The notes: a model not told the origin generated them from the sequence alone. DNA of 64,000 bases from Caldinitratiruptor microaerophilus (GCF_025999835.1 NZ_AP025628.1:1302001-1366000), one strand, 5' to 3'; shown: positions 1,665 to 24,889, counted from the first letter of the stretch. Translations and numbers: made by a program.

Positions 1665-1704
1665 GCGCCGTCTCTCATCTCCTCCTGCGGCGTGACTTCT
1701 GGAG

Positions 1705-2532
1705 TTACCCTTTCACCGCGCCGGCCGTGAGCCCTGCTACCACGTACTTCTGGAGGTAAATGTAGAGCACGACCACGGGGATCGTGCCGAGCACGGCGGC
1801 GGCCATCAGCTCGCCCCAGAGGTACACGTCGCCCAGGATGAGGTTCGTCAGTCCCACCGTGAGCGGGTGGGTGCGGGTGTCCGAGATGAAGACGAGGGCG
1901 TACAGGAACTCGTTCCAGGAGTTCGTGAAGGCGAACAGGGCGGCGGCGACCAGCCCGGGCTTGGAAAGCGGCAGCACCACCCGCGTGAGGGCTTGCCAGC
2001 GGGTGGCGCCATCGATCAGGGCCGCTTCCTCCAGCTCGGCCGGGATCGACCGGAAGAAGCCGACCAGGAGCCAGGTGCTGAGGGGGACCGTGAAGCTCGG
2101 GTAGGCGGCGATCAGCCCCGCGAGGGAATTGGAGAGCCCCAGGTCCTTGATCACGCGGTACAGGGGGATGAAGAGGATGGTGGGCGGCACGAGGTAGGCG
2201 ACCAGCACGCTGAAGGCGACGAAGTGGCGCCCCAGGAACCGGAGCCGGGCCAGGGCGTAGGCACCGACGGTCCCCACCGCCGTGGCGATGAGCGTGCTCG
2301 TCAGCGCCACGATGAAGCTGTTCTTGAACCAGGTCAGGAAGGGGAAGTTCCGCACCAGGTTGACGTAGTTGTCGAGCACGAAGGGCTCCGGCCAGAACAT
2401 CGCGTTCAGGTTGCCGATCTGGGCCCGGGTCTTGAAGGACGTCACGACCATCCAGTAGATCGGGAACCCGACCACCAGCACGAGCGCCGCCAGGGAGACG
2501 TAGGCCAACCACCGCCCGCGCTGACCCGCCAT
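1705..2532 (-). CDS. Carbohydrate ABC transporter permease, MalG type
   Basis: Inner-membrane permease of a CUT1 sugar importer, 275 residues with about six hydrophobic segments. The cytoplasmic EAA loop (EAALIDGATRWQAL) that contacts the ATPase is present near residue 185. The start is fixed by TAATG overlap with the stop of the upstream MalF-type gene and by GGGAGGTGGGGG just before it. No ATPase gene (MsmK/MalK type) is seen in the window, so the importer must borrow one encoded elsewhere, as is common for CUT1 systems in Firmicutes. Confidence 0.92.
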   Translation of the reverse strand: MAGQRGRWLAYVSLAALVLVVGFPIYWMVVTSFKTRAQIGNLNAMFWPEPFVLDNYVNLVRNFPFLTWFKNSFIVALTSTLIATAVGTVGAYALARLRFLGRHFVAFSVLVAYLVPPTILFIPLYRVIKDLGLSNSLAGLIAAYPSFTVPLSTWLLVGFFRSIPAELEEAALIDGATRWQALTRVVLPLSKPGLVAAALFAFTNSWNEFLYALVFISDTRTHPLTVGLTNLILGDVYLWGELMAAAVLGTIPVVVLYIYLQKYVVAGLTAGAVKG

Positions 2533-3464
2533 TAGGCCCCCACCTCCCGCTGCGTGTACCGGGTGAAGAGGAAGATGAGGAGGGCCATCAGCGGCATCGC
2601 GAAGATCGACACCGCCGTGCCCTTCCCGAGGTTGAGCCCGTCGATGGCGATCTCGTACGTGAGGGTGCCGACGATGTGCGTGGCGCCGCCGGGCCCGCCC
2701 CGGGTCAGGATGTAGACGGCCTGGAAGTCGTTGAAAGTCCAGATGGTGGACAGGAGCGTCGCCACGATCGCCACGTACTTGATGCCCGGCAGCGTGATGT
2801 GCCAGAACTGGCGGAAGCGGCTCGCCCCGTCGACGGCGGCGGCTTCGTACAGCTCGTGGGGGATGGTCTGCAGGCCCGCCAGGATGGTCACGCCGAAGAA
2901 GGGGAAGCCCCGCCAGACGTTCGCCGCGATGATCGAGGCCATCGCCGTCTTCGGGTTGGCGAGCCACCCGATCGGCTGGGACAGGATGCCTGCATGAACC
3001 AGGATGTAGTTGATGACCCCGAGGAGCCCGTCGAACATCCACAGGAAGTTCAGCGAACTCACCACGGTGGGCGTCACCCAGGGGATCAGGAGGAATCCGG
3101 TCCAGAAGTTCTTCGCCCGGATCCCGGCGTTGAGCGTGAGGGCCATCACGAGCCCGATCACCAGCTTGAGCGCCACCGCCACGGTGGTGAATACCACCGT
3201 GTTCCAGAGGGCCCGGCGGAAGAACGGGTCGTGCCAGAGCTCGACGTAGTTCTGCAGCCCGATGAACACCGGCCGGTAGCCGATGAGCTTCTGCGTCATG
3301 CTCAGGTAGATCGCCAGGACGCCGGGGTAGGCGATGAGCCCGAACACCGAGACGACCACCGGCGCGATGAACAGGAAGCCGAGGAGCCAGTCCCGGCCCA
3401 GGATTCGGGCCGCGCGGCTGGTCCGGCCGGCCGGCCGGGTCGCGGCGATGGGTACGTCCGCCAT
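2532..3464 (-). CDS. Carbohydrate ABC transporter permease, MalF type
   Basis: Partner permease of the CUT1 sugar importer, about 310 residues. It has hydrophobic segments starting with WLLGFLFIAPVVVSVFGLI and an EAA loop (YEAAAVDGASRFRQFW). I choose the ATG at 3464 (protein begins MADVPIAAT); an in-frame GTG at 3515 would add a Pro-rich tail unlike the family. The stop overlaps the MalG-type start by one base, so the pair is translationally coupled. Confidence 0.9.
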   Translation of the reverse strand: MADVPIAATRPAGRTSRAARILGRDWLLGFLFIAPVVVSVFGLIAYPGVLAIYLSMTQKLIGYRPVFIGLQNYVELWHDPFFRRALWNTVVFTTVAVALKLVIGLVMALTLNAGIRAKNFWTGFLLIPWVTPTVVSSLNFLWMFDGLLGVINYILVHAGILSQPIGWLANPKTAMASIIAANVWRGFPFFGVTILAGLQTIPHELYEAAAVDGASRFRQFWHITLPGIKYVAIVATLLSTIWTFNDFQAVYILTRGGPGGATHIVGTLTYEIAIDGLNLGKGTAVSIFAMPLMALLIFLFTRYTQREVGA

Positions 3465-3537
3465 GAGGGCCTGATCCCCCCTGATCTGGAGGTGGGGCGG
3501 GGCCCCGGGGACCACCCGGGGGCACCGCCCCTGCCGG

Positions 3538-4965
3538 TTATCCGACGGCCTTGTAGATGCTTTCGATCTTGCGCTTCGCCGCCTGGATGGCCTGGTCGAT
3601 GGGCGTGCCCTGCAGGACGGAGGACGCCATGTCGGTGAGGACGTGCTGGGCCCGGACCTCGGCCGCCGCGGCGGTGATGGGCCCCGGGTAGCCGGGCAGC
3701 CGGGCGTACATGCCGTTCTGCATGATCGCCTCGAAGTTCGGGTCGGTCTTCCAGTACGGGTCCTCCGCGTGGAGCTTGTAGAGCGGCGCGGCCTGGCCGA
3801 TCGAGTTGGTCATGTACTCCTTCCACTGCTCGGGCGACATGATGTACTCGATCAGGTCCTTGCAGAGGTCCGGGTGCTGGGTCTTCTTGAAGATGCCGAA
3901 GTTCCAGCTGTTGTCGGCGGTGAAGTTGCCCTTGGGGCCAGCCGGGGTGACGGAGAGCCGCGTCTTGCCCGCCAGTTCGTGCTTCTGCGAGACCAGGGCG
4001 TAGTAGATGGAGGCTCCGTTGTTCGTCATGGCGATCTTGCCGGCGAGCCACGCCTCGTTGTTGTTCGCGTCGGTCCAGCCCGCGGCGCCGGGGGGCTCCA
4101 CCTGGTGCTTCAGGAACAGGTCCACGGCGTACTGTAGCGCCTGACGGGTCTCGGGGGTGTCGAACGTGAGGGTCTTCCCGTCCTCCTTCACCCAGCTCGC
4201 GCCGTGACTCCACATGATCGCCATCATGAAGTCGTCGCCGTCGAAGGAGCGGTTGAGCGTCTGTCCGAAGCCGTAGATCCCCTTGGCCGGGTCCTGGACC
4301 TTCTTGGCGACCTCGACCACCTCGTCCCAGGTCTTCGGGGGCTGGAGGTTCTTCTCTGCCAGCAGGTCCTGACGGTAGTAGAACATCGACAACATGGAGT
4401 ACCGCGGGACAGCCCAGTACTTGCCGTCGAACTTCACCATCAGGTTCACGCGCTCGTCGCTGGTGAAGCCCTTGTTCTTCTCCAGGACCCGGGCGAGCAC
4501 GTCGTCGACCTCGAGGAGCTGTCCCATGCCCTTGTAGCGGACCGGGGCGACGGCGTCGAGCTCGCCGAGGTCGGGCGGGTTGCCGGCCTCGATGGCCGCC
4601 GCGTACTTCGTGAAGATGTCGTTGAACGTCGAGAACTCGATCTCCACGTCGACGTTCTTCTTCTCGGCCCACGTCCGGATCTGCTTCTCCAGGATCTCGT
4701 TGCCCTTGGTGACGAAGCTCTTGAAGAGCCAGATCCGCAGCTTGGGCTTCGCCAGCCCGGTCACGGCCGGGGCCGATCCCGCCGCGGCGCCGGTGGCCGC
4801 CCCCGATGCCGCCCCGCCGCCCCCGGCCGGGGCCGGGGACGGCTTCGAGCACGCCGACAGGAGCGCCCCGAGGCCGCCTGTGGCGAGCCCCGCCGCGGCG
4901 ATGCCCGCGGCCTTCAGAATCTGCCGTCGACTGAGACCTTTCGGCTCACGAGACTTCCCTGACAC
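3538..4965 (-). CDS. Sugar ABC transporter substrate-binding lipoprotein with Tat-like signal
   Basis: Extracytoplasmic solute-binding protein (family 1) of the CUT1 importer, 475 residues. The N-terminus carries a twin-arginine motif (SRRQILK, residues about 13-19), a hydrophobic stretch and a lipobox LSAC, so export by Tat followed by lipid anchoring is predicted; a TatA homologue is encoded at 40.9 kb. A Gly/Ala/Pro linker follows the cysteine, then a normal SBP fold with segments such as GYPGPITAAAAEV near the end. GTG start with GGGGG 10 bases upstream. The ligand cannot be assigned; sugars or polyols are usual for the family. Confidence 0.9.
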   Translation of the reverse strand: MSGKSREPKGLSRRQILKAAGIAAAGLATGGLGALLSACSKPSPAPAGGGGAASGAATGAAAGSAPAVTGLAKPKLRIWLFKSFVTKGNEILEKQIRTWAEKKNVDVEIEFSTFNDIFTKYAAAIEAGNPPDLGELDAVAPVRYKGMGQLLEVDDVLARVLEKNKGFTSDERVNLMVKFDGKYWAVPRYSMLSMFYYRQDLLAEKNLQPPKTWDEVVEVAKKVQDPAKGIYGFGQTLNRSFDGDDFMMAIMWSHGASWVKEDGKTLTFDTPETRQALQYAVDLFLKHQVEPPGAAGWTDANNNEAWLAGKIAMTNNGASIYYALVSQKHELAGKTRLSVTPAGPKGNFTADNSWNFGIFKKTQHPDLCKDLIEYIMSPEQWKEYMTNSIGQAAPLYKLHAEDPYWKTDPNFEAIMQNGMYARLPGYPGPITAAAAEVRAQHVLTDMASSVLQGTPIDQAIQAAKRKIESIYKAVG

Positions 4966-4990
4966 GGTGGATGACCCCCTTCTGGTTGGT

Positions 4991-6652
4991 TCATTCCCTC
5001 GCCGAGAGGCGTTCGGGCCGGGTGATGAGCTCCATCACGGCCGGGCCTCCGGCGGCGAGCGCCCGCCGGAGGGCAGCGGGGAAGTCGCGGTTGCGCTCGA
5101 CCCGCTCCCCGTGGGCCCCCATGGCCCGGGCGAGGTCGGCGAAGCCGGGGTCGCCGAGCGCCCAGCCGATGGGCCGCCCGGGGTAGCGCCGCTCCTGGTG
5201 CATGCGCATCGTCCCGTACATGCCGTTGTGGAAGACGATGCTGACCACGGGCACCCGGTGCCGGACGGCCGTCTCGAGTTCGTTCGCCGTCATGAGGAAG
5301 CCGCCGTCGCCGGCGAGGCAGACCACGGGCCGCCCCGGGGTCGCCATCGCCACCCCGATGGCGGCCGGCAGCCCGTAGCCCATCGCCCCGGAGATGGGGC
5401 CGAAGTGGGTGCCCGGCCGGCGGAACCGGTAGAACCGGGCGGGCCAGCCTGAGAAGTTGCCGGCGTCGGTGACGATCGCTGCCTCGGGCGGGAGGATCGC
5501 CTGCAGGTCGTGCATGACGCCCTCGGGGTCGACGGGCTCGCTCTCTGCCATCGGCCGGGGGGCGGTGATCCGCTCGTACACGGCCCGCAAGGCCCCTGCC
5601 GCCTCGCGCCGGTGCCGGTGGCGGTCGCTCCCGGGGAAGTCCGACGCGCGCACGGCCTCCAGGAGGTCACCGAGCGCCATGCCGGCGTCGGCCACGATCC
5701 CGACCTCGACGTCGCAGACGGCCCCGATCACCTCGGGAGCGATGTCGACCTGGATCACCCGGGTTTCCGGCGCCGGCAGGGTGTAGCCCTGGGTGGTGAA
5801 CTCGGTGAGGCGGCTGCCGACCACCAGGAGCACGTCGCGGCTGCGGACGAAGTCGACGATCTCCGGCCGGGTCGCCATCCCGAGGCCGCCGAGGAAGAGC
5901 GGGTGGTCGTTGGGGAACACGTCGAAGCGGCGGAAGCCGGCGAACACCGGGGCAGCCAGGGCCTCGGCGAACTGCACCAGCACCGGCGTCGCGCCGGCCC
6001 GCAGGACGCCGCCGCCGGCCAGGATGCCCGGCCGCTCGGCATCGAGGAGGAGCCGGACCGCCGACTCGACCTCGTCCGGGGCCGGCCGGGGCCGGGGGCG
6101 GGGCGGGGGTGCCGGCGGCCGGAAGTCGACCTCGCGGTCCAGGACGTCCTCCGGCAGCGCCACCACGACCGGGCCGGGACGGCCGGCGGTCGCCACCCGG
6201 AACGCCTGGGCCACCAGTTCCGGCACCCGGGCGGGGTGCTCGACCTGCACCGCCCACTTGGCGACCGGGCGGAAGAAGGCCGCCAGGTCGACCTCCTGGA
6301 ACGCCTCCCGGTGGAGGAAGCGCGTCGGCACCTGCCCGAGGAGCACCACGAGCGGGGTAGAATCCTGGCGGGCCGTGTGAACGCCGATGGCCAGGTTCCC
6401 GGCTCCGACCCCGCGGGTCGCCATCGCCACGCCGGCCCGGCCGGAGGCCTTGGCGTACCCCTCCGCGCAGAAGACCGACCCGCCCTCGTGGCGGTTGAGC
6501 ACGAGCTGGACGTCGGGCATGTCGTAGAAGGCGTCGATGACCGGCAGGTAGCTCTCGCCCGGGACGCAGAAGACGTGCGTGACCCCGTGCCGGCGGATGA
6601 TCTCGGCCACCGCCCTGCCGGCCGTCATCACGGGTGACAAGCGCAAATCCAC
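4991..6652 (-). CDS. Thiamine-pyrophosphate-dependent enzyme, acetolactate-synthase-like
   Basis: TPP enzyme of the acetohydroxyacid synthase/benzoylformate decarboxylase superfamily, 553 residues, about the normal length. The activating glutamate lies in LNRHEGGSVFCAEGYA near residue 55; the TPP/Mg motif begins at GDGGFLMTANELET near residue 450 and ends at the VFHN asparagine. It is not obviously IlvB: there is no small subunit gene and it sits within a transport/catabolic locus, so a specialised lyase or decarboxylase acting on the imported acid is more likely. The GTG at 6652 is annotated; an ATG at 6628 (MTAGRAVAEII) is an equally good start. Confidence 0.85.
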   Translation of the reverse strand: MDLRLSPVMTAGRAVAEIIRRHGVTHVFCVPGESYLPVIDAFYDMPDVQLVLNRHEGGSVFCAEGYAKASGRAGVAMATRGVGAGNLAIGVHTARQDSTPLVVLLGQVPTRFLHREAFQEVDLAAFFRPVAKWAVQVEHPARVPELVAQAFRVATAGRPGPVVVALPEDVLDREVDFRPPAPPPRPRPRPAPDEVESAVRLLLDAERPGILAGGGVLRAGATPVLVQFAEALAAPVFAGFRRFDVFPNDHPLFLGGLGMATRPEIVDFVRSRDVLLVVGSRLTEFTTQGYTLPAPETRVIQVDIAPEVIGAVCDVEVGIVADAGMALGDLLEAVRASDFPGSDRHRHRREAAGALRAVYERITAPRPMAESEPVDPEGVMHDLQAILPPEAAIVTDAGNFSGWPARFYRFRRPGTHFGPISGAMGYGLPAAIGVAMATPGRPVVCLAGDGGFLMTANELETAVRHRVPVVSIVFHNGMYGTMRMHQERRYPGRPIGWALGDPGFADLARAMGAHGERVERNRDFPAALRRALAAGGPAVMELITRPERLSARE

Positions 6653-6683
6653 CCCCGCATGCGGTGTCGTTGCGGCGCTCCGG

Positions 6684-8597
6684 CTACGCCCCCTGGGCGG
6701 GCCGGCCGCCCGCCGGCGCGGGGACCGCGGCTGGCCGGCGGCCGGTCAGCCGCTGAAGGAGCACCGCGCCCAGGAGCAACCCGAAGCCCACGGCGTCGGT
6801 GACCAGTCCCTGGTCGATCAGGAGGAACGCGGCTGCACCCAGGAGCACGCGCTCCAGCCAGGTGGCGGGGCGGAAGAGGTAGCCCCGCAGCGCCGCCGCC
6901 AGGGCGACGGAGCCCGTCGTCGCGGTCACCAGGGCCCACGCGATCTGGCCCGGAGAGCCCAGGAAGAGCAAGGCGGGACCGAACACGAACATGTACGGGA
7001 CGATGAACCCGGCCGCCCCGACCTTGACGGCTTCGATGCCCGCATCCCAGAAACGGGCCTTGCCGATCCCGGCCGCCGCGTACACGGCCAGGGCGACGGG
7101 CGGGGTGATGGCCGAGATCGCCGCGAAGTAGATGACGAACAGGTGCGCGGCGACGGGGTGCACCCCCATCTTCACCAGGGCCGGGATGAGGAGGGCCGCC
7201 TGGACGATGTACGCGGGGGTCGTCGGCATGCCCATGCCGAGGATGAGGCCGGCGACCATCGTCAGCACCAGCGCCGGCAGGAGGTGCTGCCCGGCGATCC
7301 CGAGCACCAGCGAGGTGAAGCGCAGCCCGAGCCCGGTGAGGGCGATGACCCCGATGATGATGCCCGCCGCCGCGCACGTCGCCGCCACGGCCAGCGTGTT
7401 GCGGGCGCCGCTCTCCAGGGCCTCCAGGATGCTCCGGACCCCCATCCGGGTGTCCCGCCGCAGCCAGCTCAGGACGAGCACGGAGGCGGTCGCCCACAGC
7501 GCCGCGTAGGTGGCGGTGAAGCCGGCGACCATCAGCGCCAGGATGAGGATGACGGGCAGGAAGAGGTGCCCGCGGCTCAGGATGACGTCGCGAAGCCGGG
7601 GCACCTCTTCCCTCGGCACGCCCTTGAGGTCGGAGCGCAGCGCCTCGAAGTGGATCGAGAAGAAGAGCGCCACGTAGTAGAGGAGCGCCGGGATCAGCGC
7701 GTGCTTCGCCACCTGGATGTACGGGATGCCGAGGAACTCGGCCATCACGAAGGCCGCCGCCCCCATGACCGGCGGCATGATCTGCCCGCCGGTCGACGCC
7801 GTCGCCTCCACCGCGGCCGCAAACGGGGGCCGGAACCCCGCCCGTTTCATGAGCGGGATGGTGAGCCAGCCGTCGACCATCACGTTGGCCACGGCGCTGC
7901 CGGAGATCGTGCCGAAAAGGCTCGACGACACCACCGACACCTTGCCCGGGCCGCCCCGGCTGCCGCCCGTGATCGCCGTCGCGAAGTCCGTGAAGAACTG
8001 CCCGACGCCGGACTTGTCCAGGAACGCCCCGAACACCACGAACACGATCACGTACGTGGCGCTGACGCCCAGCGGGATGCCGAAGATGCCTTCGGTCGTG
8101 AGGTACAGCTGGTCGAGGAGGATCTCGACGCTGAACCCCGGGTGCTTCAGGATGCCCGGCAGGTAGGGGCCGGTGAGGGCGTAGAGCAGGAACACGGCGG
8201 CGGTGACCGGCAGGACGAGCCCGGTGGTTCGCCGGGCGGCCTCGAGGACCACCAGGACCAGGATGGCGCCGAAGACCTTGTCGCCCAGCCGGAGGGGATC
8301 GACGTAGTAGATCCGGTTGACCACGTACTCGTAGTTCACGAAGAGGTAGCCGATCGAGGCGATGCTCAGGACCAGGAGGCCCAGGTCGGCGGCCCACCCC
8401 CACCAGCGGCCCTGCTCCCGGGCCCGCGCCGGAAAGGTGAGGAAGATGAGCGCCAGGCTGAACAGCAGGTGCGTCCCCCGCAGGATGATGGCCTCCGGCG
8501 TGCCGGTGGCCACCACGTACAGGTGGTACGCCGCCATGACGATGGCCACGACGCTGGTGATGCGCCTCACGACGGCTGCGGCCCGCTCCAATCGCAA
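6684..8597 (-). CDS. TRAP transporter fused permease (DctQ-DctM, TAXI type)
   Basis: Membrane subunit of a TAXI-type TRAP transporter in which small (4TM) and large (12TM) subunits are fused; 637 residues with hydrophobic segments throughout. Segments such as GVSATYVIVFVVFGAFLDKSG, GTISGSAVANVMVDGW and GGQIMPPVMGAAAFVMAEF are typical of the fused family. TTG start (position 8597) after a GGGGGG run. It follows its binding protein gene by 46 bases. Drives uptake of organic acids using a Na+ or H+ gradient; together with the ABC importer the locus has two unrelated uptake systems. Confidence 0.93.
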   Translation of the reverse strand: MRLERAAAVVRRITSVVAIVMAAYHLYVVATGTPEAIILRGTHLLFSLALIFLTFPARAREQGRWWGWAADLGLLVLSIASIGYLFVNYEYVVNRIYYVDPLRLGDKVFGAILVLVVLEAARRTTGLVLPVTAAVFLLYALTGPYLPGILKHPGFSVEILLDQLYLTTEGIFGIPLGVSATYVIVFVVFGAFLDKSGVGQFFTDFATAITGGSRGGPGKVSVVSSSLFGTISGSAVANVMVDGWLTIPLMKRAGFRPPFAAAVEATASTGGQIMPPVMGAAAFVMAEFLGIPYIQVAKHALIPALLYYVALFFSIHFEALRSDLKGVPREEVPRLRDVILSRGHLFLPVILILALMVAGFTATYAALWATASVLVLSWLRRDTRMGVRSILEALESGARNTLAVAATCAAAGIIIGVIALTGLGLRFTSLVLGIAGQHLLPALVLTMVAGLILGMGMPTTPAYIVQAALLIPALVKMGVHPVAAHLFVIYFAAISAITPPVALAVYAAAGIGKARFWDAGIEAVKVGAAGFIVPYMFVFGPALLFLGSPGQIAWALVTATTGSVALAAALRGYLFRPATWLERVLLGAAAFLLIDQGLVTDAVGFGLLLGAVLLQRLTGRRPAAVPAPAGGRPAQGA

Positions 8598-8643
8598 CGC
8601 CCCCCGGCTGCCCTTTCTCCCCGGTGACCGGCAGCGCCGCCGG

Positions 8644-9702
8644 CTACTTCTTCAGCACCTCGTCGAAGAACCGCTTCGCCCCGGGGTGGAAGGGCACCCC
8701 GACGTCGACCGCCATCTTCTCCGGCGTCATCCCCTTGATCGCGCTGGCGATGGCGGCCAGCTGGTCCCGGTTGTCCACCACGAGCTTGGTGATCCGGTAG
8801 GCGAGATCCGCCGGGACCTTCTCGCTGGCGATGAGGTGAGTGTAGGTACCCACCGTGACCGCATCCTCGTCCTGACCCGGGTACGTCCCCTTGGGGATCA
8901 CGAGCTTCGCGTAGCCCTTGTTCTTCTGCCGGAGTGCGGCAAGCTTGTCGTCCGGAAGACTCAGGACCCGGATGGCGCGCCCGGTGGCGAGGTCCATCAC
9001 CGAGGAGGCCGGGATGGTGGTGATGAGCATGAAGGCGTCCGCCTGGCGGTTCTTGATGAGCTCGACAGCATCGGAGTAGCTGACGAAGTGGACCTTGGCC
9101 AGATCCTCGTATTTCAGGCCGTAAACCTCGAGGACCTCCCGCGTGATCTGCTCGCCCGTGTTGCCCTTGGGCTGGGTGGCGAGGCGCTTCCCCTTCAGGT
9201 CGGCGACGCTCTTGATGCCGGAGTCCGCCGGCACGATCATCTGGAAGTACTGGTTGTACAGTGTGACGAGGTTCAAGACGTCCTTGGTGGCCGTCTCGAA
9301 CGGCGGCCGCCCCTCGTACCCGTCAGCGGTGGAGTTCGCGTTGCCAAAGCCCAGGTCCGCCTTGCCCTCGTGGATCGCCTTGACGTTGGCGATGCCCGCC
9401 CCCGGCTGCACCGTGATGGTGACGCCCGGGATCTCCTTCTGCACCATCTCAGCGATGGCGCCGCCCAGCGGCGTCCAGGTCCCACCCTGCGGGCCCGTCA
9501 TCATGCGCAGCTGGGTCGGCGCCGCGGCGGCCTGCCCGCCGCCGGCGGAGCCCTGCGCCGGCGCCGCCCCGGCCTGGCTCCCCTGACCCGCACCGGACGG
9601 GGCCGCCGGCTGGGAGGCGCCGCCCCCGGCCCCGCCGCACCCTGCCAGGGCGACCAGGACCAGTGCCGTCAGGACACTCAGGATCACCCTCGTTCGTTTC
9701 AC
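8644..9702 (-). CDS. TAXI-family TRAP transporter solute-binding lipoprotein
   Basis: Extracytoplasmic solute receptor for the adjacent TRAP permease, 352 residues. A signal peptide ending in a lipobox (ALAGC, Cys near residue 22) is followed by a low-complexity Gly/Ala/Gln/Pro linker of about 45 residues, then the TAXI core with MTGPQGGTWTPLGGAIAEM and GFGNANSTADGYEG. Its GTG start overlaps the stop of the FadR-type regulator as GTGA, and GGGGAGGAG precedes it, so the regulator and transporter form one transcript. Confidence 0.92.
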   Translation of the reverse strand: MKRTRVILSVLTALVLVALAGCGGAGGGASQPAAPSGAGQGSQAGAAPAQGSAGGGQAAAAPTQLRMMTGPQGGTWTPLGGAIAEMVQKEIPGVTITVQPGAGIANVKAIHEGKADLGFGNANSTADGYEGRPPFETATKDVLNLVTLYNQYFQMIVPADSGIKSVADLKGKRLATQPKGNTGEQITREVLEVYGLKYEDLAKVHFVSYSDAVELIKNRQADAFMLITTIPASSVMDLATGRAIRVLSLPDDKLAALRQKNKGYAKLVIPKGTYPGQDEDAVTVGTYTHLIASEKVPADLAYRITKLVVDNRDQLAAIASAIKGMTPEKMAVDVGVPFHPGAKRFFDEVLKK

Positions 9703-10481
9703 TCCGCTCTCCTCCCCTCGTTCTTCCGGAACTTGACCGGGCCGTCGTGCCCCGTGCCGGGCGACGGCCGGCGCTGCGCCTCCGCCCAGCGGAGCCGCGC
9801 TTCGACCTCATCGAGGTGGGCGATGAGGGCCCGGCTCGCCGCCTGCCCGTCCCCCGCCTCGATCGCCGCCAGGATCCGGCCGTGCTCCTCGGCGATCTTC
9901 TCCGCCCGCCCGGGAGCGTCCAGCAGCACCTCGGTGGACCGGCTGAGCCCCTCGACGAAGAGGCTGGCGAGCGATCCCATGAGATGGGTGAAGACGGCAT
10001 TGCCGGCCGCCCGGGCGATCGCGTAGTGGAAGGCGAAGTCCTCCGCCACCGTGTGGCCGTCGAGGGCGAGCCGCTCCCGGAAGGCCGCGTGGGCCGCCCG
10101 GATCCGGTCCAGGTCCTCGGGCGTGCGGCGCTCCGCCGCCAGCCGGGCGGCCTCGGCCTCGAGCGCCCGCCGGGCCTCCAGCAGGTCGTACAGGGTGTAA
10201 CCATCGGGCAACAGCATGAGCTCGAGCGCCCGGCCCTTCGCGGCCGGCGTCCCCGGCCGGACGAAAGCGCCGGAGCCCGGCCGGATCTCGACCACGCCGG
10301 CCCGCTCCAGAACCGTGAGCGCCTGCCGCAAGACCGGCCGGCTCACCCCGAACGTGCCGGCCAGGTCCCGCTCCGACGGAAGGCGGTCGCCCGGCCGCAG
10401 TTCGCCGGACCGGACGGCCTCGAGCAGGCGCTCGACCACTTCTTCGTACGTCCGCACCCGCCGGATGGGGGAAAAGGCCAC
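9699..10481 (-). CDS. FadR/GntR-family transcriptional regulator
   Basis: DNA-binding regulator with an N-terminal GntR winged helix (GELRPGDRLPSERDLAGTFG followed by VSRPVLRQALTVLERAG, residues about 25-65) and a C-terminal FCD ligand-binding domain with conserved metal-binding-type residues (RAAHAAFRERL, FHYAIARAAGN). About 260 residues. I choose the GTG at 10481, 7 bases after GGGAGGAG, over an upstream in-frame start. First gene of the catabolic locus; probably an acid-responsive repressor of the downstream transporters and enzymes (inference from position). Confidence 0.9.
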   Translation of the reverse strand: MAFSPIRRVRTYEEVVERLLEAVRSGELRPGDRLPSERDLAGTFGVSRPVLRQALTVLERAGVVEIRPGSGAFVRPGTPAAKGRALELMLLPDGYTLYDLLEARRALEAEAARLAAERRTPEDLDRIRAAHAAFRERLALDGHTVAEDFAFHYAIARAAGNAVFTHLMGSLASLFVEGLSRSTEVLLDAPGRAEKIAEEHGRILAAIEAGDGQAASRALIAHLDEVEARLRWAEAQRRPSPGTGHDGPVKFRKNEGRRAE

Positions 10482-10579
10482 ACCCAGTCTCCTCCCGCCC
10501 TGCCGGTCCGTGCCGCCGCTTGTCCCACGCGGCAGGAGGAAGTCCACTTCGCCGTGGTGAAGTGGCTAATCCAGTGGGA

Positions 10580-18252: not shown

Positions 18253-19014
18253 CTAGTGCATCACCCGCCCCCCGTCGACCACGATCACCTGGCCGTTGAC
18301 GTGAGACGCGGCCGGCGACAGCAGCCAGGCGACGACCTCCGCCACCTCCTCGTACGTCCCGAGCCGGCGCAGAGGGGTCTGAGCCGCCATGGCGGCCAGC
18401 GCCTCCTCCGGCAGCGCCCGGGCGAGCGGCGAGTCGAGTGGCCCCGGCGCCACGCAGTTCACCCGGATCCCGAGCGGCCCCAGTTCCCGGGCCGCCGACC
18501 GGGTGAGGCCGACGAGCCCCGCCTTCGCGGCGGCGTACGCCGGTCCGAACGAGCCACCGGTCAGGGCAGCCACCGAGCTCACGTTGACCACCGCCGCGCC
18601 CCCGGGCGCCCCCGCCAGGAGCGGGAGCGCGTGATACAGCACGTGGAACGGCCCGTCGAGGTCGACGGCGAGGACCTGCCGCCACCCGGCCGGGGTGACG
18701 GCGGGCCACGGGGCGACGGGCGCGACCCCGGCGTTGTTGGCGATCAGGTCGAGCCCGCCCCAGGCGTCCTCGACCTGCCGCACCAGGTCGGCGACCTGGT
18801 CCGGGTCGGCCAGGTCGGCCCGCAGGACGAGGGCCCGCCGGCCCGCGCGCTGCACCTCGCCGGCGGTGTCCCGGGCGCCCGCCTCGCCGCGATGGTAGTG
18901 GACGGCGACGTCCGCCCCCGCCGCGGCCAGCCGCCGCGCGACCGCGGCGCCCAGGCCCCGGGATGCGCCGGTGACCAGGGCTCGCCGCCCGCTGAGGTCA
19001 GTGGTCACCGCCAC
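18253..19014 (-). CDS. SDR-family oxidoreductase in ligase/reductase cluster
   Basis: Classical SDR of 253 residues with TGASRGLG (near residue 13), NNAG, NVSSVAAL and YAAAKAG; C-terminus VNGQVIVVDGG. FabG-like by pattern. GTG at 19014 is 7 bases after GGAGGAGG and overlaps the end of the acyl-reductase gene by 10 bases; a second GTG at 19008 gives the classical GTGA overlap. Last gene of a tightly overlapping minus-strand operon, so it probably reduces or oxidises a product of the neighbouring chorismate/ligase/reductase enzymes (inference). Confidence 0.88.
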   Translation of the reverse strand: MAVTTDLSGRRALVTGASRGLGAAVARRLAAAGADVAVHYHRGEAGARDTAGEVQRAGRRALVLRADLADPDQVADLVRQVEDAWGGLDLIANNAGVAPVAPWPAVTPAGWRQVLAVDLDGPFHVLYHALPLLAGAPGGAAVVNVSSVAALTGGSFGPAYAAAKAGLVGLTRSAARELGPLGIRVNCVAPGPLDSPLARALPEEALAAMAAQTPLRRLGTYEEVAEVVAWLLSPAASHVNGQVIVVDGGRVMH

Positions 19015-20354
19015 GGCTGCCCCTCCTCCCGGAAGGCCTTGCTGGTGAAGAGGAACTCCGACAGCCGGCCGTGGTGCGGCGCGCCGGGCTCCGTGAACCA
19101 GGGCGGCACCGGGCCGGCGAACACCTTGGCGATGGTCGGCTCCGTGAGGCACGCCTCGACGAGCCCCGGGTCCCGGGTGAGCAAGGTGACCGCGAGGGAG
19201 CCCCGCAGAAGAGGCAGGGGATCGGCGCCGGCCGGGAGCTCGGCGGCCGTCGCCCAGGGCGCCGGCAGCTCGAGGCCGAAGGGCGGGGCGAAGGGGTCGG
19301 GGCAGCGGACGAGTTCGGGCTGAACGAAGGTGACGCCGTCGTGGACGACCACCCGGCCGGGGGTCCGCCGCGCCGCGTCCGGGTCCTTCCAGGCGGGGAC
19401 CCGGGCGGCGGGGTCGAGGGGGTCGAGCAGGGGGATCGCCGCCAGCTTTCCGGCCAGGCCGTCCAGGAGGCCCGGCACCTCGCCCCGGACCAGGACGGCA
19501 CTCGCGCAGGTGCACTTGCGGCCGCCGTCGTGGAGGATGCACTCGAGGAGGAAGCCGGCGGTCGCGTCGGGGTCGGCCGGGGCGTCGACCAGCACCCTGC
19601 TGCGGCCGGGGCCGTTCATGAGGACGCGGGCGTCGCGGCCGAGGAGGTCGGCCAGGACCGGGCCGCCGTAGGCGACGGTCCGGTCGCACGCCTCCACCAG
19701 CGCGGGTACCAGGTCGTGGCCGCCCGGGAGCAGGGCGATCCGCTCGGCCGGGAAGCCGGCCGCCCGCAGGGCCAGGGCCAGGCGCCAGGGCGTCAGCGGG
19801 TCGTCGGAGCCGGGCCGGACGGCGACGCTCCAGCCCATCGCCAGGGCGAGGACCCAGGTCAGGTGCACGGTGGGGTGGTTCGACGGGGCCACGAACCCGA
19901 GCACCCGTCCGGCCGGGACCCACGCGTACGTGCGGCCGTCCGGCAGCGCGACCCGGCGGGTACGGAAGACCGTGAGGTCCCCGCCCGGCGCCTGCCAGTG
20001 CAGTGCGGAGCGGATCTCGCGCAGCCCGCCGGCGAGTTCGGCGAGGGCCTGGCGGCTCCAGGCGAGCGGCGCCCCGGTGGCCCGGGTGACCAGGCGGGCG
20101 TGGTCCTCCGGCCCCAGGCCCCCCAGCCGGCTGCCGGTCAGCAGCTCGCCCGCCCGGGCGATGGCGTCCCAGCGCGATTCCGGGTCCTCCTCCGGGCCGG
20201 GGGCAGCGGCGCGCAGCCGCGACACCACCCGGTGCACCAGGAGGGCAGGCGCGTGGTGTACGCGGGCGAGGGGTTCGCCGCGGTAGTCCCGGAGGACGGA
20301 CGTCGTCAGCGAAGCCGCTTCGTGGCCACAGCGCCAGATCGGCACCTCCAGCAC
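19005..20354 (-). CDS. LuxC-like acyl reductase (aldehyde-dehydrogenase superfamily)
   Basis: 449-residue member of the aldehyde-dehydrogenase superfamily resembling acyl-CoA/acyl-protein reductases. Evidence: GFVAPSNHPTVHLTWVLALA (cofactor domain, residues about 153-172), and the nucleophile in GGRKCTCAS with Cys281, followed by Val-rich strands. In LuxC-type enzymes this cysteine takes the acyl group from an activated donor and NADPH reduces it to aldehyde. It begins one base after the stop of an adenylating ligase gene (TGA-C-GTG), the same pairing as LuxE/LuxC. The natural acyl substrate is unknown; the linked chorismate enzyme hints at an aryl acid. Confidence 0.78.
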   Translation of the reverse strand: MLEVPIWRCGHEAASLTTSVLRDYRGEPLARVHHAPALLVHRVVSRLRAAAPGPEEDPESRWDAIARAGELLTGSRLGGLGPEDHARLVTRATGAPLAWSRQALAELAGGLREIRSALHWQAPGGDLTVFRTRRVALPDGRTYAWVPAGRVLGFVAPSNHPTVHLTWVLALAMGWSVAVRPGSDDPLTPWRLALALRAAGFPAERIALLPGGHDLVPALVEACDRTVAYGGPVLADLLGRDARVLMNGPGRSRVLVDAPADPDATAGFLLECILHDGGRKCTCASAVLVRGEVPGLLDGLAGKLAAIPLLDPLDPAARVPAWKDPDAARRTPGRVVVHDGVTFVQPELVRCPDPFAPPFGLELPAPWATAAELPAGADPLPLLRGSLAVTLLTRDPGLVEACLTEPTIAKVFAGPVPPWFTEPGAPHHGRLSEFLFTSKAFREEGQPWR

Positions 20355-20355
20355 G

Positions 20356-21417
20356 TCAGTACACCCCCTCGACCTCGGGTCCGCTGCCCCCCAGCGGCGC
20401 CACCCGGGCCAGGCCGTCCCACGGGTCCGGCAGGGAGGGCGGCACCCGGATCGCCCGGTCCCGCTCCAGATGCCACGGCAGGAAGAGCTCGCGGGTGAGG
20501 ACGCTCAGGCGCACCTGCCCCTCCTCGCCGTACCCCACTTCCCTCGAGGGGTCCCGGGGGTCGACCAACCGCACCACCGCCCCGGGCGACGGCGGCACGA
20601 AGACGCAGCGATGGGGATCCCCGGGGCGGCGGGGGCGCTGGCAGGCGATGCCCATGAGCGTGTTGCCGTACCAGCCCACCACGGTCACGCCGGGGAGCAG
20701 TTCCTCCTCCAGCAGCCGGAGGGCCTCGTCCGACAGGCTGGTGCCGAACCAGATGATCCCCTTCACCCGGGCCCGCAGCCGTTCGTACGCCTCCGGGTGC
20801 TCGCACAGCGCCTGCAGGAGCGGCGGGGTGGTGGTGACCACCGTGACCGGCTGGGTCCGGAGGATCGCCAGGGCCTGCTCGATCACGTGGGCGGTGTAGC
20901 GGCGGACCTCGTCGAGCCGGCCGGCCCGGTACAGGCGTTTCACCCAGCGCGGGTCCAGGTCGACGGTGTGGCACAGGGAGCCGCGCAGGCGCGCCAGCCG
21001 GGCCACGCTGGTCCCGACGAGGTGGGGCCCGCTGGGCCCGACGTGCAGCCAGTCGCCGGCGGCGGGGTCAGGGACGTGCTCGTCCCGGGGGCCCCGGTGG
21101 GCGCCGGGAAAGCCGTGCAGGTCGAGGATCCGGCTGATCCGCAGCACGCCCCGGTACCGCTCCCGGGCGTCGACGATGCGCCGGGGCGGTCCGGTGGTCC
21201 CGCCCGTCTCCCACACGGCGAAGGGGCCGCGCGCGCCGCGGGGGATGAGGTCGGCGGCGGGGACCGTCCGCCACTCGTCGGCCACCGGGGGAAAGCGCGC
21301 GAGGTCGGCGAAGCCCCGGACGTCGCGGCGCGGGTCGAAGCCAAGAGTCTGCGCCCGCCGGAGCCAGTACGGCGAGCCGGTCTCTGGATCGAAGTGCCAG
21401 GCGATGATCGCCCGCAC
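20356..21417 (-). CDS. LuxE/PaaK-like adenylate-forming ligase
   Basis: About 353-residue acyl-adenylating enzyme. The P-loop-like motif ETGGTTGPP lies near residue 70; IIWFGTSLSDEALRLLEEEL and GWYGNTLMG are typical of the PaaK/LuxE branch. The protein is shorter than PaaK and appears to lack the mobile C-terminal AMP-ligase subdomain, as acyl-protein synthetase LuxE does. GTG at 21417 is the first plausible start; the frame is open back to the preceding stop (about 14 codons) without another start. Likely activates a carboxylic acid for the adjoining reductase. Confidence 0.75.
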   Translation of the reverse strand: MRAIIAWHFDPETGSPYWLRRAQTLGFDPRRDVRGFADLARFPPVADEWRTVPAADLIPRGARGPFAVWETGGTTGPPRRIVDARERYRGVLRISRILDLHGFPGAHRGPRDEHVPDPAAGDWLHVGPSGPHLVGTSVARLARLRGSLCHTVDLDPRWVKRLYRAGRLDEVRRYTAHVIEQALAILRTQPVTVVTTTPPLLQALCEHPEAYERLRARVKGIIWFGTSLSDEALRLLEEELLPGVTVVGWYGNTLMGIACQRPRRPGDPHRCVFVPPSPGAVVRLVDPRDPSREVGYGEEGQVRLSVLTRELFLPWHLERDRAIRVPPSLPDPWDGLARVAPLGGSGPEVEGVY

Positions 21418-21457
21418 GTGCGCGTCGAGGCCGGCGCGCCCGCAGGCGCCGGAAACG

Positions 21458-22711
21458 TCATGCCCGCTCAGCGTCCACCACCTCCGCCCCGAGCGCCTCC
21501 AGGGTCCGGCGGGCCTTGGCGAGGCACTCCGCCCACTCGGCCTCCGGCTCGCTCTCCGGCACCACCCCGGCGCCGGCGCGTACCCGGACCGTCCCGCCCT
21601 CGATGGCGGCGGTGCGGATGGTGAGCCAGAGCTGGACGTCCCCGCCGGGGAGCAGCGCGCCCACGGCCCCGGCGTACCAGCCGCGGGGGACCGGCTCGAG
21701 CGCCTCGATCAGGGCCACCGCCGGCCCGCGCGGCACCCCGCTCACCGTCCCGGCCGGGAAGCACGCCCGGATGAGGTCGGCCGGACCGGCGTCCTCCCGC
21801 AGTTCCCCGGCGATGTGCGAGGCCAGGTGCACCAGCCCCGGGTGGCGCTCGGGCACCAGGAAGGACTCGACGGCCACGGAGCCCGGCCGGCACACGGACA
21901 GGAGATCCCGCCGGCCCTGCTCGACGGCCACCGCGTGCTCGAAGCGGTCCTTGCGGCTGGCCAGGAGGGCAGCAGCCGGTCCGGCCCCCTCCGGCCGGGT
22001 GCCCGCCAGGAGGTGCAGTTCGGCCCGCCGGCCGGTCAGGGTGACGAGGGGCTCGGGCGAGACGCCGGCCAGGACCGGCGCGCCGGGGCCGTCGGCGAGG
22101 AGGAACCTCAGCCCCGGCGGGTCCGACGCCGTGAGGCGGCGGAACACCCCGGCCGGCGGGAGCCCGCAGGGCGCGGACAGGGGCACCGAGAGGACGACCT
22201 TCTGCAAGACCCCGGCGGCCATCCGGCGCCGGGCCTCCTGGACGGCGGTGGAGAACCCTGCCCGGTCCCAGAGCGGCCGGGCGGCGGCCGGCGGGCCGCT
22301 GCCGGTTCGCACGCCGCCGGAGGCCCCGGGCGCGCCGGCCGGTTCGGGGGCCGGCAGCTCCCCCCGGTACCAGAGCGTGCCGGTGTGCCGGTCGAACAGG
22401 GCCGCGGCGCCCGGCAGCCAGAACCGGGCCGAACCGTCCCAAGCGAGGGTCCCCACCACCGCGCCGAGGAGGGCCGCCGCGCCGGGCGGGAGCGCGCCGG
22501 CCGCCTCCGGGGCGGCCCTTCCCGCCAGGGACAGGGCGCCTTCCAGTGTCGACGCCCGGGCCACCGGCTGCCAGGCCACCAGGTCGTAGCGCCTCCCAGC
22601 CGCCACGAGGCCCCCCAGGACGGCCACGGGCGGGGCGAGCGCTGCGGCGAGGTCGGCCGGACCCCAGGCGGGGAGCGGTCGGGACCGTGCGGGGGGGTCA
22701 CCCGGGCCCAT
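21458..22711 (-). CDS. Chorismate-utilising enzyme (isochorismate synthase/TrpE/PabB family)
   Basis: 417-residue chorismate-binding enzyme. The C-terminal half shows the family blocks QKVVLSVPL (near residue 190), AGVSPEPLV, LLAGTRPEG, then HIAGELRED, CFPAGTVSGVPRG and RAGAGVVPESEPEAEW. A lysine in the QKVVLS position is found in water-using isochorismate synthases (EntC/MenF), where TrpE and PabB usually have Gln; the TVSGxP block, however, looks TrpE/PabB-like. No glutamine amidotransferase gene is adjacent. I therefore favour isochorismate or salicylate formation, with ammonia-using activity as the alternative. Overlaps the upstream cyclase gene by 14 bases. Confidence 0.83.
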   Translation of the reverse strand: MGPGDPPARSRPLPAWGPADLAAALAPPVAVLGGLVAAGRRYDLVAWQPVARASTLEGALSLAGRAAPEAAGALPPGAAALLGAVVGTLAWDGSARFWLPGAAALFDRHTGTLWYRGELPAPEPAGAPGASGGVRTGSGPPAAARPLWDRAGFSTAVQEARRRMAAGVLQKVVLSVPLSAPCGLPPAGVFRRLTASDPPGLRFLLADGPGAPVLAGVSPEPLVTLTGRRAELHLLAGTRPEGAGPAAALLASRKDRFEHAVAVEQGRRDLLSVCRPGSVAVESFLVPERHPGLVHLASHIAGELREDAGPADLIRACFPAGTVSGVPRGPAVALIEALEPVPRGWYAGAVGALLPGGDVQLWLTIRTAAIEGGTVRVRAGAGVVPESEPEAEWAECLAKARRTLEALGAEVVDAERA

Positions 22712-23381
22712 CGGGGGTCCCCCCTTCCAGGGCGACGGCCCGGACCGGCGCCGCCTCGGCGCCGTGCACCACGATCGGCAGCGCCGAGAGCCAGACGCGC
22801 CGCGAGCGCAGGGCCGCCAGGTTGCGGATGTACTCGAGGATCGGGATGCCGGCGCCGAGAAGCGACCGGTGCACCGGGAAGGCGCGGTCGCCCGGCTCCT
22901 CGGTGAGGCAGTCGAGGCCGACCAGCCGCACCCCCCGCTCGACGCACCACGCGGCGGCGGTGGCGTCGAGGTACGGGGGCTTCTGCCAGAAGTCCGGGTC
23001 CCCCCAGTGGCGGTCCAGGTAGTCGGTGCGAACGAGGAGCCGGAGCCCGCGCAGGTCCTCGCCGCCCATGACGGCGTCGAGGTCGGCGGCGGTGATCGGC
23101 TCGCGGAGGCCCTTGTGGGTCAGGTCGGCCACCACGGCCGGGCCCAGGAAGATCGCCGGGTCGAGTTCGGCCACGCCGGGCGCGCCGGGGAAGAAGTGGC
23201 TCGGCGCGTCCACGTGGGTCGCGTTGTGGGGGTTCATCACGAACTGGCTGAACGTGCGGCCCTGGCCTGCGGGGTCGGTGTCCGGGGTCAGGATCCGGCG
23301 CAGGTCGAAGCGCGCGTACCAGGCCGCTCCGTACGCCGGCATGCCGGCGCGAAAGCCGTGGGTGAGGTCGACGATTCGCAC
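22698..23381 (-). CDS. Cyclase/kynurenine-formamidase-family metal hydrolase
   Basis: 227-residue protein of the cyclase (Pfam PF04199) family. The metal site motif is present as H-x-x-T-H-x-D-x-P-x-H (NPHNATHVDAPSHFF, near residue 52), a variant of the usual HxGTHxD. Other family parts are GLRLLVRTDYLDRHW and GLDCLTEEP. Members hydrolyse amides (formylkynurenine), or act on polyketide or isatin-type rings. First gene of the overlapping minus-strand operon. GTG start at 23381 without a clear ribosome-binding site. Confidence 0.85.
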   Translation of the reverse strand: MRIVDLTHGFRAGMPAYGAAWYARFDLRRILTPDTDPAGQGRTFSQFVMNPHNATHVDAPSHFFPGAPGVAELDPAIFLGPAVVADLTHKGLREPITAADLDAVMGGEDLRGLRLLVRTDYLDRHWGDPDFWQKPPYLDATAAAWCVERGVRLVGLDCLTEEPGDRAFPVHRSLLGAGIPILEYIRNLAALRSRRVWLSALPIVVHGAEAAPVRAVALEGGTPDGPG

Positions 23382-23494
23382 GGCCGGTGAGGGCGTCTGC
23401 CCCGCGCCCCCTTTCGCGCTGTGGTGCTGCCATCGTATGAAGGGACCCCGGCCCTGGCCCGCGCATAGAAGTGGCCCACGGGAGGTGCGCCGCG

Positions 23495-23956
23495 GTGGAG
23501 ATCGGGCCGATGGCCCTGCACGAATGGCCGTGGCTCCTCGCCCGGTCGGTGGCCACGGGCTGGGAGCAGCTCATCCCGGCGCAGCGGGCGGCCACCACGC
23601 CGGCCTTGTTCGCCGCGCGGGTGGAGCACATGCTGCGCCTGGCGCTCGGCTTGCCGGGAGGTACCGCCCTCGTGGCGCGGGAGCGGGGGGAACCCATCGG
23701 GTACACCGTCGTGGCCGTGGCGCCGGACGAGCTCACCGGCATGCCCTGCGGCCACCTCGTCGACATCTGGGTCGAGCCCGGGCGGCGCGGCAAGGGGATC
23801 GGCCACCGGCTCACGGCCGCCGGGGAGGCGCACTGCCGCGCGCTCGGCCTTCCCCTGGTCCGCCGGGTGGTGGCGGCGCACAACCGAACCTCGCTCGCGC
23901 ACGCCCTCGCCGACGGCTGCCAGGTCGAGCGGCTCACCCTCGTGAAGGTGCTCTGA
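23495..23956 (+). CDS. GNAT-family N-acetyltransferase
   Basis: 153-residue GNAT protein. The acetyl-CoA pyrophosphate loop is seen as VEPGRRGKGIGHRL (near residue 95), preceded by the beta-4 strand HLVDIWV. GTG at 23495 is 7 bases after GGGAGGTG and fits the family start better than an upstream in-frame GTG at 23471. It is divergent from the cyclase gene with 113 bases between them and is followed 24 bases later by the E2-like gene, so the two plus-strand genes are an operon beside the ligase/reductase operon. Acceptor unknown. Confidence 0.85.
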   Translation: MEIGPMALHEWPWLLARSVATGWEQLIPAQRAATTPALFAARVEHMLRLALGLPGGTALVARERGEPIGYTVVAVAPDELTGMPCGHLVDIWVEPGRRGKGIGHRLTAAGEAHCRALGLPLVRRVVAAHNRTSLAHALADGCQVERLTLVKVL

Positions 23957-23980
23957 CGCCCCGGGGCGGAGGTGAGGGCC

Positions 23981-24889
23981 TTGTCCGCAAGCGTCGTCAT
24001 GCCCGCCGGCGGCACGGTGCTCCAGTGGCTCAAGCGGCCCGGCGACTGGGTGGCGCCCGGGGAAGCCGTCGTCACCGTCGCGGTGGGCGGAGCCGCCCAC
24101 GCCCTCCCCGCGCCGGCCGGCGGCGTGCTGGCGGCCGCGCTGGTGCGGCCGGGGAGCGCGGTCGCCCCCGGCGAGGACCTCGCCTACATATCGCCGGCCG
24201 TGGCCGGACCGGGGGGCCAGCGGCTCCTGCCGTGGGACCACCTGCGCCTGCGAATCGCCCACCACATGCAGTACAGTTCGAACGCGGCAGCCCACGTGAC
24301 GACCGGGGTCGAGGTGGACGTCTCCCGCCTCCAGTCGCTGCGGCGGGCGCTCCGGGAACGGGGGATGCCGATCGGGCTGACTCCGTTCCTCGTGCGCGCC
24401 GCCGCCGAAGCCCTCCTCGACTGGCCGTGCCTCAACGGGCAGGTCACGCCGCTCGGCCTCGTGCTCCCGGACCGCGTCAACATCTGCGTCCCGGTCGACG
24501 TGCCGGGAGGAGTCGACCTGATCGTGCTCCGGGACGCCCCGTACAAGACCGTGTCCCACCTCGCCGCCGAACTCCGTTACCTGAGCGCCCTCGCCCGCGC
24601 CGGATACGGCGGCCCTCACATCAGCGAGGGGGGCACCTTCACCGTGACCAACCCCGGCAGCCTGGGGTCCGTCTGGGGGACGGCCGTCATCAACCAGCCC
24701 AACTGCGCCATCCTGGCGTGCCAGGCGGTCGTCGACCGGCCGGTGGCCCTTCCGGGCGGGCGGATCGAGGTCCGGCCGGTCATGAACCTGAGTCTCTCCT
24801 TCGACCACCGGGCCCTGGACGGCGTGGTCACCCTGGGGTTTCTCAACCGGGTCAGGGAAGTCGTGGAGGCGGCGAACGTCCCGGTCTGA
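23981..24889 (+). CDS. Stand-alone E2-like acyltransferase lacking the lipoyl lysine
   Basis: 302-residue relative of 2-oxoacid dehydrogenase E2 proteins. Residues 1-66 fold like a lipoyl domain (GTVLQWLKRPGDWVAPGE, then PAPAGGVL), but where E2 has the lipoylated DK the sequence reads VAVGGAAH, so Gly37 replaces the lysine. There is no recognisable E1/E3-binding domain; the catalytic domain starts near residue 85 and keeps the acyltransferase motif DHRALDG (His276, Asp280). No E1 or E3 genes adjoin. TTG start chosen because GGAGGTGA lies 5 bases before it. Probably transfers an acyl group without a swinging lipoyl arm (inference). Confidence 0.8.
   Translation: MSASVVMPAGGTVLQWLKRPGDWVAPGEAVVTVAVGGAAHALPAPAGGVLAAALVRPGSAVAPGEDLAYISPAVAGPGGQRLLPWDHLRLRIAHHMQYSSNAAAHVTTGVEVDVSRLQSLRRALRERGMPIGLTPFLVRAAAEALLDWPCLNGQVTPLGLVLPDRVNICVPVDVPGGVDLIVLRDAPYKTVSHLAAELRYLSALARAGYGGPHISEGGTFTVTNPGSLGSVWGTAVINQPNCAILACQAVVDRPVALPGGRIEVRPVMNLSLSFDHRALDGVVTLGFLNRVREVVEAANVPV

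Follow-up and report, generated by a model that had tools for sequence, protein, structure and literature searches.

Gene neighbourhood and active-site residues suggest an isochorismate-derived aryl aldehyde cluster in Caldinitratiruptor microaerophilus and Streptomyces

A 64,000-nucleotide stretch of the Caldinitratiruptor microaerophilus genome (NZ_AP025628.1:1302001-1366000; hereafter the window, from a 3.6 Mb genome on a single contig) contains an operon for a PF04199 'cyclase'-family protein (Cyc), a chorismate-binding enzyme (Chor), an adenylating ligase (Lig), an acyl reductase (Red) and a short-chain dehydrogenase (SDR), from which genes for a GNAT acetyltransferase and an E2-like acyltransferase diverge. 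What would such a set make from chorismate? Here, sequence, structure and gene-neighbourhood comparisons lead us to regard the locus as probably directing the synthesis of an aryl aldehyde from isochorismate, with Cyc as the proposed isochorismate-consuming enzyme. A preliminary description, made from the sequence alone, had suggested that an acid derived from chorismate is adenylated and reduced to an aldehyde; its observation was right, its chemistry largely right and its family names wrong, so that its interpretation as a whole is partly supported.

A conserved gene set in two phyla

The operon is genuine. Cyc and Chor overlap by 14 bp and Red and SDR by 4 bp, with gaps of 40 bp between Chor and Lig and 1 bp between Lig and Red (Table 1), in agreement with the earlier statement that the minus-strand genes overlap or lie no more than 40 bp apart. 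All seven genes are supported by coding-type codon-position GC or by clear Pfam family matches, and lie where the preliminary description had placed them. The likely start of the GNAT gene is the GTG at 23495, and translation of Lig may begin upstream of the GTG at 21417.

Of the 154 genomes of the class, six contain a close homologue of Cyc, and these six and no others also contain one of Lig. They comprise that of the window, four Symbiobacterium-like genomes with the same gene order, and a genome of another family (G019) in which the order is partial. As five of the six come from one order, these are not six independent events. The G019 locus is split over two contigs that both end inside the ligase, the first carrying 3-deoxy-D-arabino-heptulosonate 7-phosphate (DAHP) synthase, Cyc, Chor and Lig, and the second Lig, Red, GNAT, a minus-strand gene, a second GNAT and an E2-like gene. 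The DAHP synthase was named from reading its sequence; its homologue in Streptomyces, with which it shares 55% identity, carries the annotation aroF. DAHP synthase is the entry enzyme of the shikimate pathway, and its position at the head of the G019 operon therefore supports a chorismate-derived product.

A rearranged version of the set (cyclase, DAHP synthase, ligase, reductase and isochorismate synthase) is present in Streptomyces, where 8 of 393 genomes contain a close Cyc. DAHP synthase, Lig and Red stand alongside Cyc in all eight and an isochorismate synthase in seven, the eighth contig being just 5 kb long. On the plasmid of Streptomyces sp. NBC_00998, recovered in a plasmid search, SDR, Red and Cyc lie on one strand and DAHP synthase, Lig and isochorismate synthase on the other. 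This version is evidently rare, since Cyc was found in none of 386 genomes sampled phylum-wide around Streptomyces; 25 genomes that hold other Lig-type loci likewise yielded no close Cyc. Both Streptomyces isochorismate synthases tested pass the isochorismate-synthase model TIGR00543 (293 bits; cut-off 224.75) and share only about 34% identity with Chor. Two different lineages thus fill the isochorismate-synthase slot, which argues for shared function over mere descent. Conservation of the block is beyond chance, and the preliminary description, which had treated these genes as a functional set, stands on this count: the set recurs in other genomes, Streptomyces clusters included.

Table 1. 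Genes of the operon and of its divergent neighbours, in positions of the window
Gene	Position	Strand	Assignment
Cyc	22698-23381	minus	PF04199 'cyclase', 99 bits; heads operon
Chor	21458-22711	minus	PF00425 chorismate-binding enzyme, 222 bits
Lig	20356-21417	minus	AMP-binding; adenylating enzyme, EhpF/GriC family
Red	19005-20354	minus	Aldedh, 65 bits; aldehyde dehydrogenase-fold acyl reductase, EhpG/GriD family
SDR	18253-19008	minus	adh_short_C2; short-chain dehydrogenase, optional tailoring gene
GNAT acetyltransferase	23471-23956	plus, divergent	PF00583, 45 bits
E2-like acyltransferase	23972-24889	plus, divergent	PF00198, 180 bits; PF00364, 27 bits

The chorismate enzyme and the ligase–reductase pair

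To place Chor among chorismate enzymes, it was aligned with EntC, MenF, TrpE and PabB of E. coli and with the TrpE-like and PabB-like proteins of its own genome. Lys171 of Chor (in KVVLS) corresponds to the isochorismate-synthase lysine, whereas the ammonia users TrpE and PabB carry glutamine. Across Chor and four homologues this lysine and the LAGT and GxPR motifs are common to all five and EW to four, and at these positions Chor agrees with EntC and MenF, not with TrpE and PabB. Chor carries the active-site residues of isochorismate synthases and is predicted to be an enzyme of that type.

These residues bear directly on the aminated products that had been listed, beside isochorismate and salicylate, among the possible outcomes. 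Chor could in principle take ammonia through a trp or pab glutaminase to give an aminobenzoate or aminodeoxyisochorismate, the amine then being acetylated by GNAT; GNAT genes are indeed present, and the grixazone and phenazine relatives contain nitrogen. However, lysine replaces the glutamine of TrpE and PabB and the other isochorismate-synthase positions concur, making this route improbable, and an ammonia-using anthranilate or p-aminobenzoate synthase was rejected for Chor because its active-site residues disagree. Least probable of all, and already contradicted, is that Chor serves menaquinone synthesis beside unrelated neighbours. Chor is the genome's sole enzyme of isochorismate-synthase type, the other two chorismate enzymes resembling TrpE and PabB, but none of the ten genomes tested has a MenD above cut-off and the block is conserved across phyla; a menaquinone role was rejected on the MenD result. 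A phenazine core was likewise rejected, as the cluster is without phz-type genes.

Lig aligns over its full length with the EhpF structures 3l2k and 3hgu (238 bits; profile 7-352 to chain 20-366) and, lacking the ANL C-terminal domain, ends in EGVY. EhpF reportedly lacks this domain too, with EhpG as its proposed partner. In a midpoint-rooted tree of 92 ligases, Lig falls together with EhpF, GriC-type and isochorismate-cluster ligases, within a 33-row set comprising the SYM, GRI, ICS and EHPF groups (support 98/91). When Red was aligned with EhpG- and GriD-type reductases the catalytic Cys281 was invariant, and Red has GPG in place of the ELGG glutamate motif of aldehyde dehydrogenases (ALDHs), a motif that the EhpG- and GriD-type proteins also lack; a protein that keeps the cysteine but has lost the glutamate motif would be expected to reduce acyl groups and not to oxidize aldehydes. 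Structure prediction, a check that the preliminary description had proposed, was run on Red and returned an ALDH fold (AlphaFold, pLDDT 92.8) whose closest PDB chains are ALDHs. The earlier labels 'LuxE-like ligase' and 'LuxC-like reductase' find no such backing in Pfam: Lig does not match LuxE (PF04443) nor Red LuxC (PF05893) at E values up to 10, and membership of these families was rejected; EhpG itself scores 18.5 bits against PF05893, below the cut-off of 21. The LuxE/LuxC luminescence fatty acid reductase resembles the pair in activating an acid and then forming an aldehyde, but differs in those families.

By homology, Lig and Red belong instead with the carboxylic acid reductases typified by EhpF/EhpG in phenazine and GriC/GriD in grixazone synthesis. 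In D-alanylgriseoluteic acid synthesis, EhpA-E build phenazine-1,6-dicarboxylate from chorismate and EhpF-O modify it further (PMC3175449). The EhpF/EhpG system of Pantoea agglomerans resembles the window operon in its adjacent ligase without a C-terminal domain and ALDH-fold reductase, and in belonging to a pathway that starts from chorismate and includes PhzE and an SDR; in place of the phz core genes, the window operon has the isochorismate-synthase-type Chor and Cyc. In the work of Suzuki (2007), as cited in PMC10179220, GriC forms an acyl-AMP that GriD reduces. GriC/GriD of Streptomyces griseus is similarly a two-subunit system taking an aryl acid to the aldehyde via acyl-AMP, but in the grixazone case GriI/GriH supply the acid, which does not derive from chorismate. 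This homology, together with the co-occurrence described above, supports the earlier suggestion that an acid from chorismate would be converted to its acyl-AMP, from which reduction would give an aldehyde.

The ligase–reductase pair has a far wider distribution. More than 570 EhpF-like relatives of Lig were found in many phyla, often adjoining a Red homologue. The whole-collection scan covered the best 80 of these, none of which had Cyc; it mapped the Lig-Red pair rather than the cluster. Among the phyla with such loci (L024-L103) are Acidobacteria, Poribacteria, Planctomycetes, Verrucomicrobia and others. Streptomyces ligases 48-50% identical to Lig adjoin griH-, griI- and grixazone-oxidase-like genes, these neighbours being named from reading and not by a model.

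The candidate isochorismate-consuming enzyme

If Chor supplies isochorismate, which enzyme consumes it? Cyc is present in every examined cluster of this type, no known isochorismatase or pyruvate-lyase gene was seen within the clusters, and Cyc also accompanies an isochorismate synthase elsewhere: one plasmid combines Cyc, DAHP synthase and isochorismate synthase with no Lig match, which places Cyc next to isochorismate. On these grounds Cyc is proposed as the best candidate for this step. Its metal motif (His/His/Asp-Glu/His) and a glutamate are conserved in the alignment from Symbiobacteriales to Streptomyces. Kynurenine formamidase and isatin hydrolase share the PF04199 fold family and metal motif of Cyc, but their gene context differs, and Cyc does not pass the arylformamidase model TIGR03035 (62.6; cut-off 223).

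From the gene content, conservation, family membership and active-site residues given above, we infer the following reactions, product and place for Cyc. Chor would convert chorismate to isochorismate, and Cyc would strip the enolpyruvyl side chain, either in a pyruvate-lyase-type reaction yielding salicylate or by hydrolysis to a dihydrodiol acid. Salicylate is favoured because SDR, which would be needed to aromatise the dihydrodiol, is missing from G019 and from most Streptomyces clusters. Lig would then activate the salicylate-type acid as acyl-AMP, and Red would take the acyl group onto Cys281 and reduce it with NAD(P)H to the aryl aldehyde. Where present, SDR could further reduce or oxidize the product, and in the Symbiobacteriales version GNAT and the non-lipoylatable E2-like protein may acylate it.

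Two other assignments compete for the step given here to Cyc. Chor might itself be a bifunctional salicylate synthase, acting as isochorismate synthase and pyruvate lyase, with Cyc working later, for example on an ester, lactone or amide form of the product, which it would hydrolyse. Salicylate synthases have the same active-site lysine, Chor scores 113 bits on their model TIGR03494, and the PDB relatives of Cyc are formamidases and isatin hydrolases. We nevertheless consider this unlikely, as a plain isochorismate synthase accompanies Cyc in the Streptomyces clusters and Cyc follows isochorismate genes even without Lig and Red. Alternatively, Cyc may be an isochorismatase-like hydrolase of a new kind that forms 2,3-dihydro-2,3-dihydroxybenzoate, which an EntA-like SDR would oxidize to 2,3-dihydroxybenzoate for Lig and Red to convert to 2,3-dihydroxybenzaldehyde. 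This gene logic parallels entC-entB-entA of E. coli, where an isochorismate-synthase-type enzyme and an SDR likewise share a single operon, and SDR is 31% identical to EntA. Yet SDR scores best against FabG-type families and has the patchy distribution noted above, so that we hold this route, too, to be doubtful; an EntA-like identity was rejected for SDR, given 31% identity only and its variable presence. The window operon also differs from the EntC-EntB-EntA system in having Cyc, of a different fold, and no isochorismatase gene, and in the proposed fate of the acid, which would be reduced here and is loaded for a siderophore there.

Several observations weigh against the pathway favoured here, in which Chor makes isochorismate for Cyc. 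Chor falls under the curated cut-offs for both isochorismate synthase (TIGR00543, 153.7 against 224.75) and salicylate synthase (TIGR03494, 113 against 325); as none is passed, its assignment rests on residues and context. Genes of the isochorismatase family occur elsewhere in all ten genomes tested and could act in trans. PF04199 enzymes are known as amide and lactone hydrolases, and none is known to act on isochorismate; nor is a metabolite known for the cluster. In the ligase tree the clusters of Symbiobacteriales and of Streptomyces do not form a group of their own apart from GriC and EhpF, so the two could differ in product, and the variable presence of SDR makes the oxidation state of the product less certain.

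Tailoring genes, neighbouring loci and significance

SDR accompanies Lig and Red in Symbiobacteriales and in two Streptomyces clusters but was not found at the G019 locus. GNAT and the E2-like protein are confined to the Symbiobacteriales and G019 versions, GNAT adjoining Cyc in the former and lying downstream of Red in the latter, and relatives of the E2-like protein lie close to the cluster in Symbiobacterium and G019. The E2-like protein has a catalytic 2-oxoacid_dh domain with the DHRxxDG motif. It had been called lipoyl-less; a PF00364 lipoyl domain is in fact present above cut-off, but glycine replaces the lipoylatable lysine (manual alignment against the canonical DK motif). GNAT and the E2-like gene are putative acyl-transfer tailoring genes. 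In Symbiobacterium an E1-alpha-like gene (PF00676) adjoins GNAT (L015:11887-13648; also L016 and L017), and beyond GNAT lies an E2-like protein of catalytic-domain length; no E1-beta was noticed nearby.

The Streptomyces tailoring genes are variable and include ATP-grasp, L-amino acid ligase, aminotransferase, carbamoyltransferase, DUF362 and LarB/C/E-like genes. The LarB/LarC/LarE-like (nickel-pincer cofactor) genes lie inside isochorismate clusters of two strains (L148:5820-8853 and L172:14126-17016). Other plasmids carry related pairs in different company. On that of Streptomyces sp. ADI95-16 (L150) and related S. goshikiensis plasmids an EhpF/EhpG-like pair has DAHP synthase and PabB as neighbours, which suggests a pathway to an aldehyde derived from p-aminobenzoate. 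An EhpF-like 'arylcarboxylate reductase' on another Streptomyces plasmid (L151:7926-9008) stands beside genes annotated as mqnE, mqnC and 1,4-dihydroxy-6-naphthoate synthase, and an E. coli IncFIB plasmid (L152) carries a phenazine-type cluster with EhpF/EhpG-like genes and DAHP synthase. Elsewhere in the window, positions 588-10547 encode an Ldh_2 dehydrogenase, a thiamine pyrophosphate enzyme, parts of TRAP (tripartite ATP-independent periplasmic) and ABC (ATP-binding cassette) transporters and a GntR/FCD regulator, and resemble a cluster for taking up and degrading organic acids; a large serine recombinase with Resolvase and Recombinase domains (60188-61756) marks a possible mobile element.

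The gene set had been thought to belong to no described pathway. A chorismate enzyme with this type of ligase and reductase is known (PhzE with EhpF/EhpG, PMC3175449), whereas no described cluster containing the full set was found in the open-licence literature; as far as that literature shows, the isochorismate and PF04199 version in two phyla is undescribed. Its recurrence in Streptomyces indicates a real pathway, in which the unexplained enzyme is the 'cyclase'-family hydrolase. We tentatively suggest that Cyc is a new metal-dependent PF04199 isochorismate enzyme that replaces an isochorismatase or a PchB-type lyase and, with DAHP synthase, isochorismate synthase and an EhpF/EhpG-type reductase, defines an undescribed natural-product family of Symbiobacteriales and Streptomyces. 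The comparison connects the operon of a Symbiobacterium relative with a cluster that recurs in Streptomyces and carries genes of peptide-ligase, carbamoyltransferase and nickel-cofactor type; this link points to an unstudied family of natural products, and a PF04199 reaction on isochorismate, if true, would be new.

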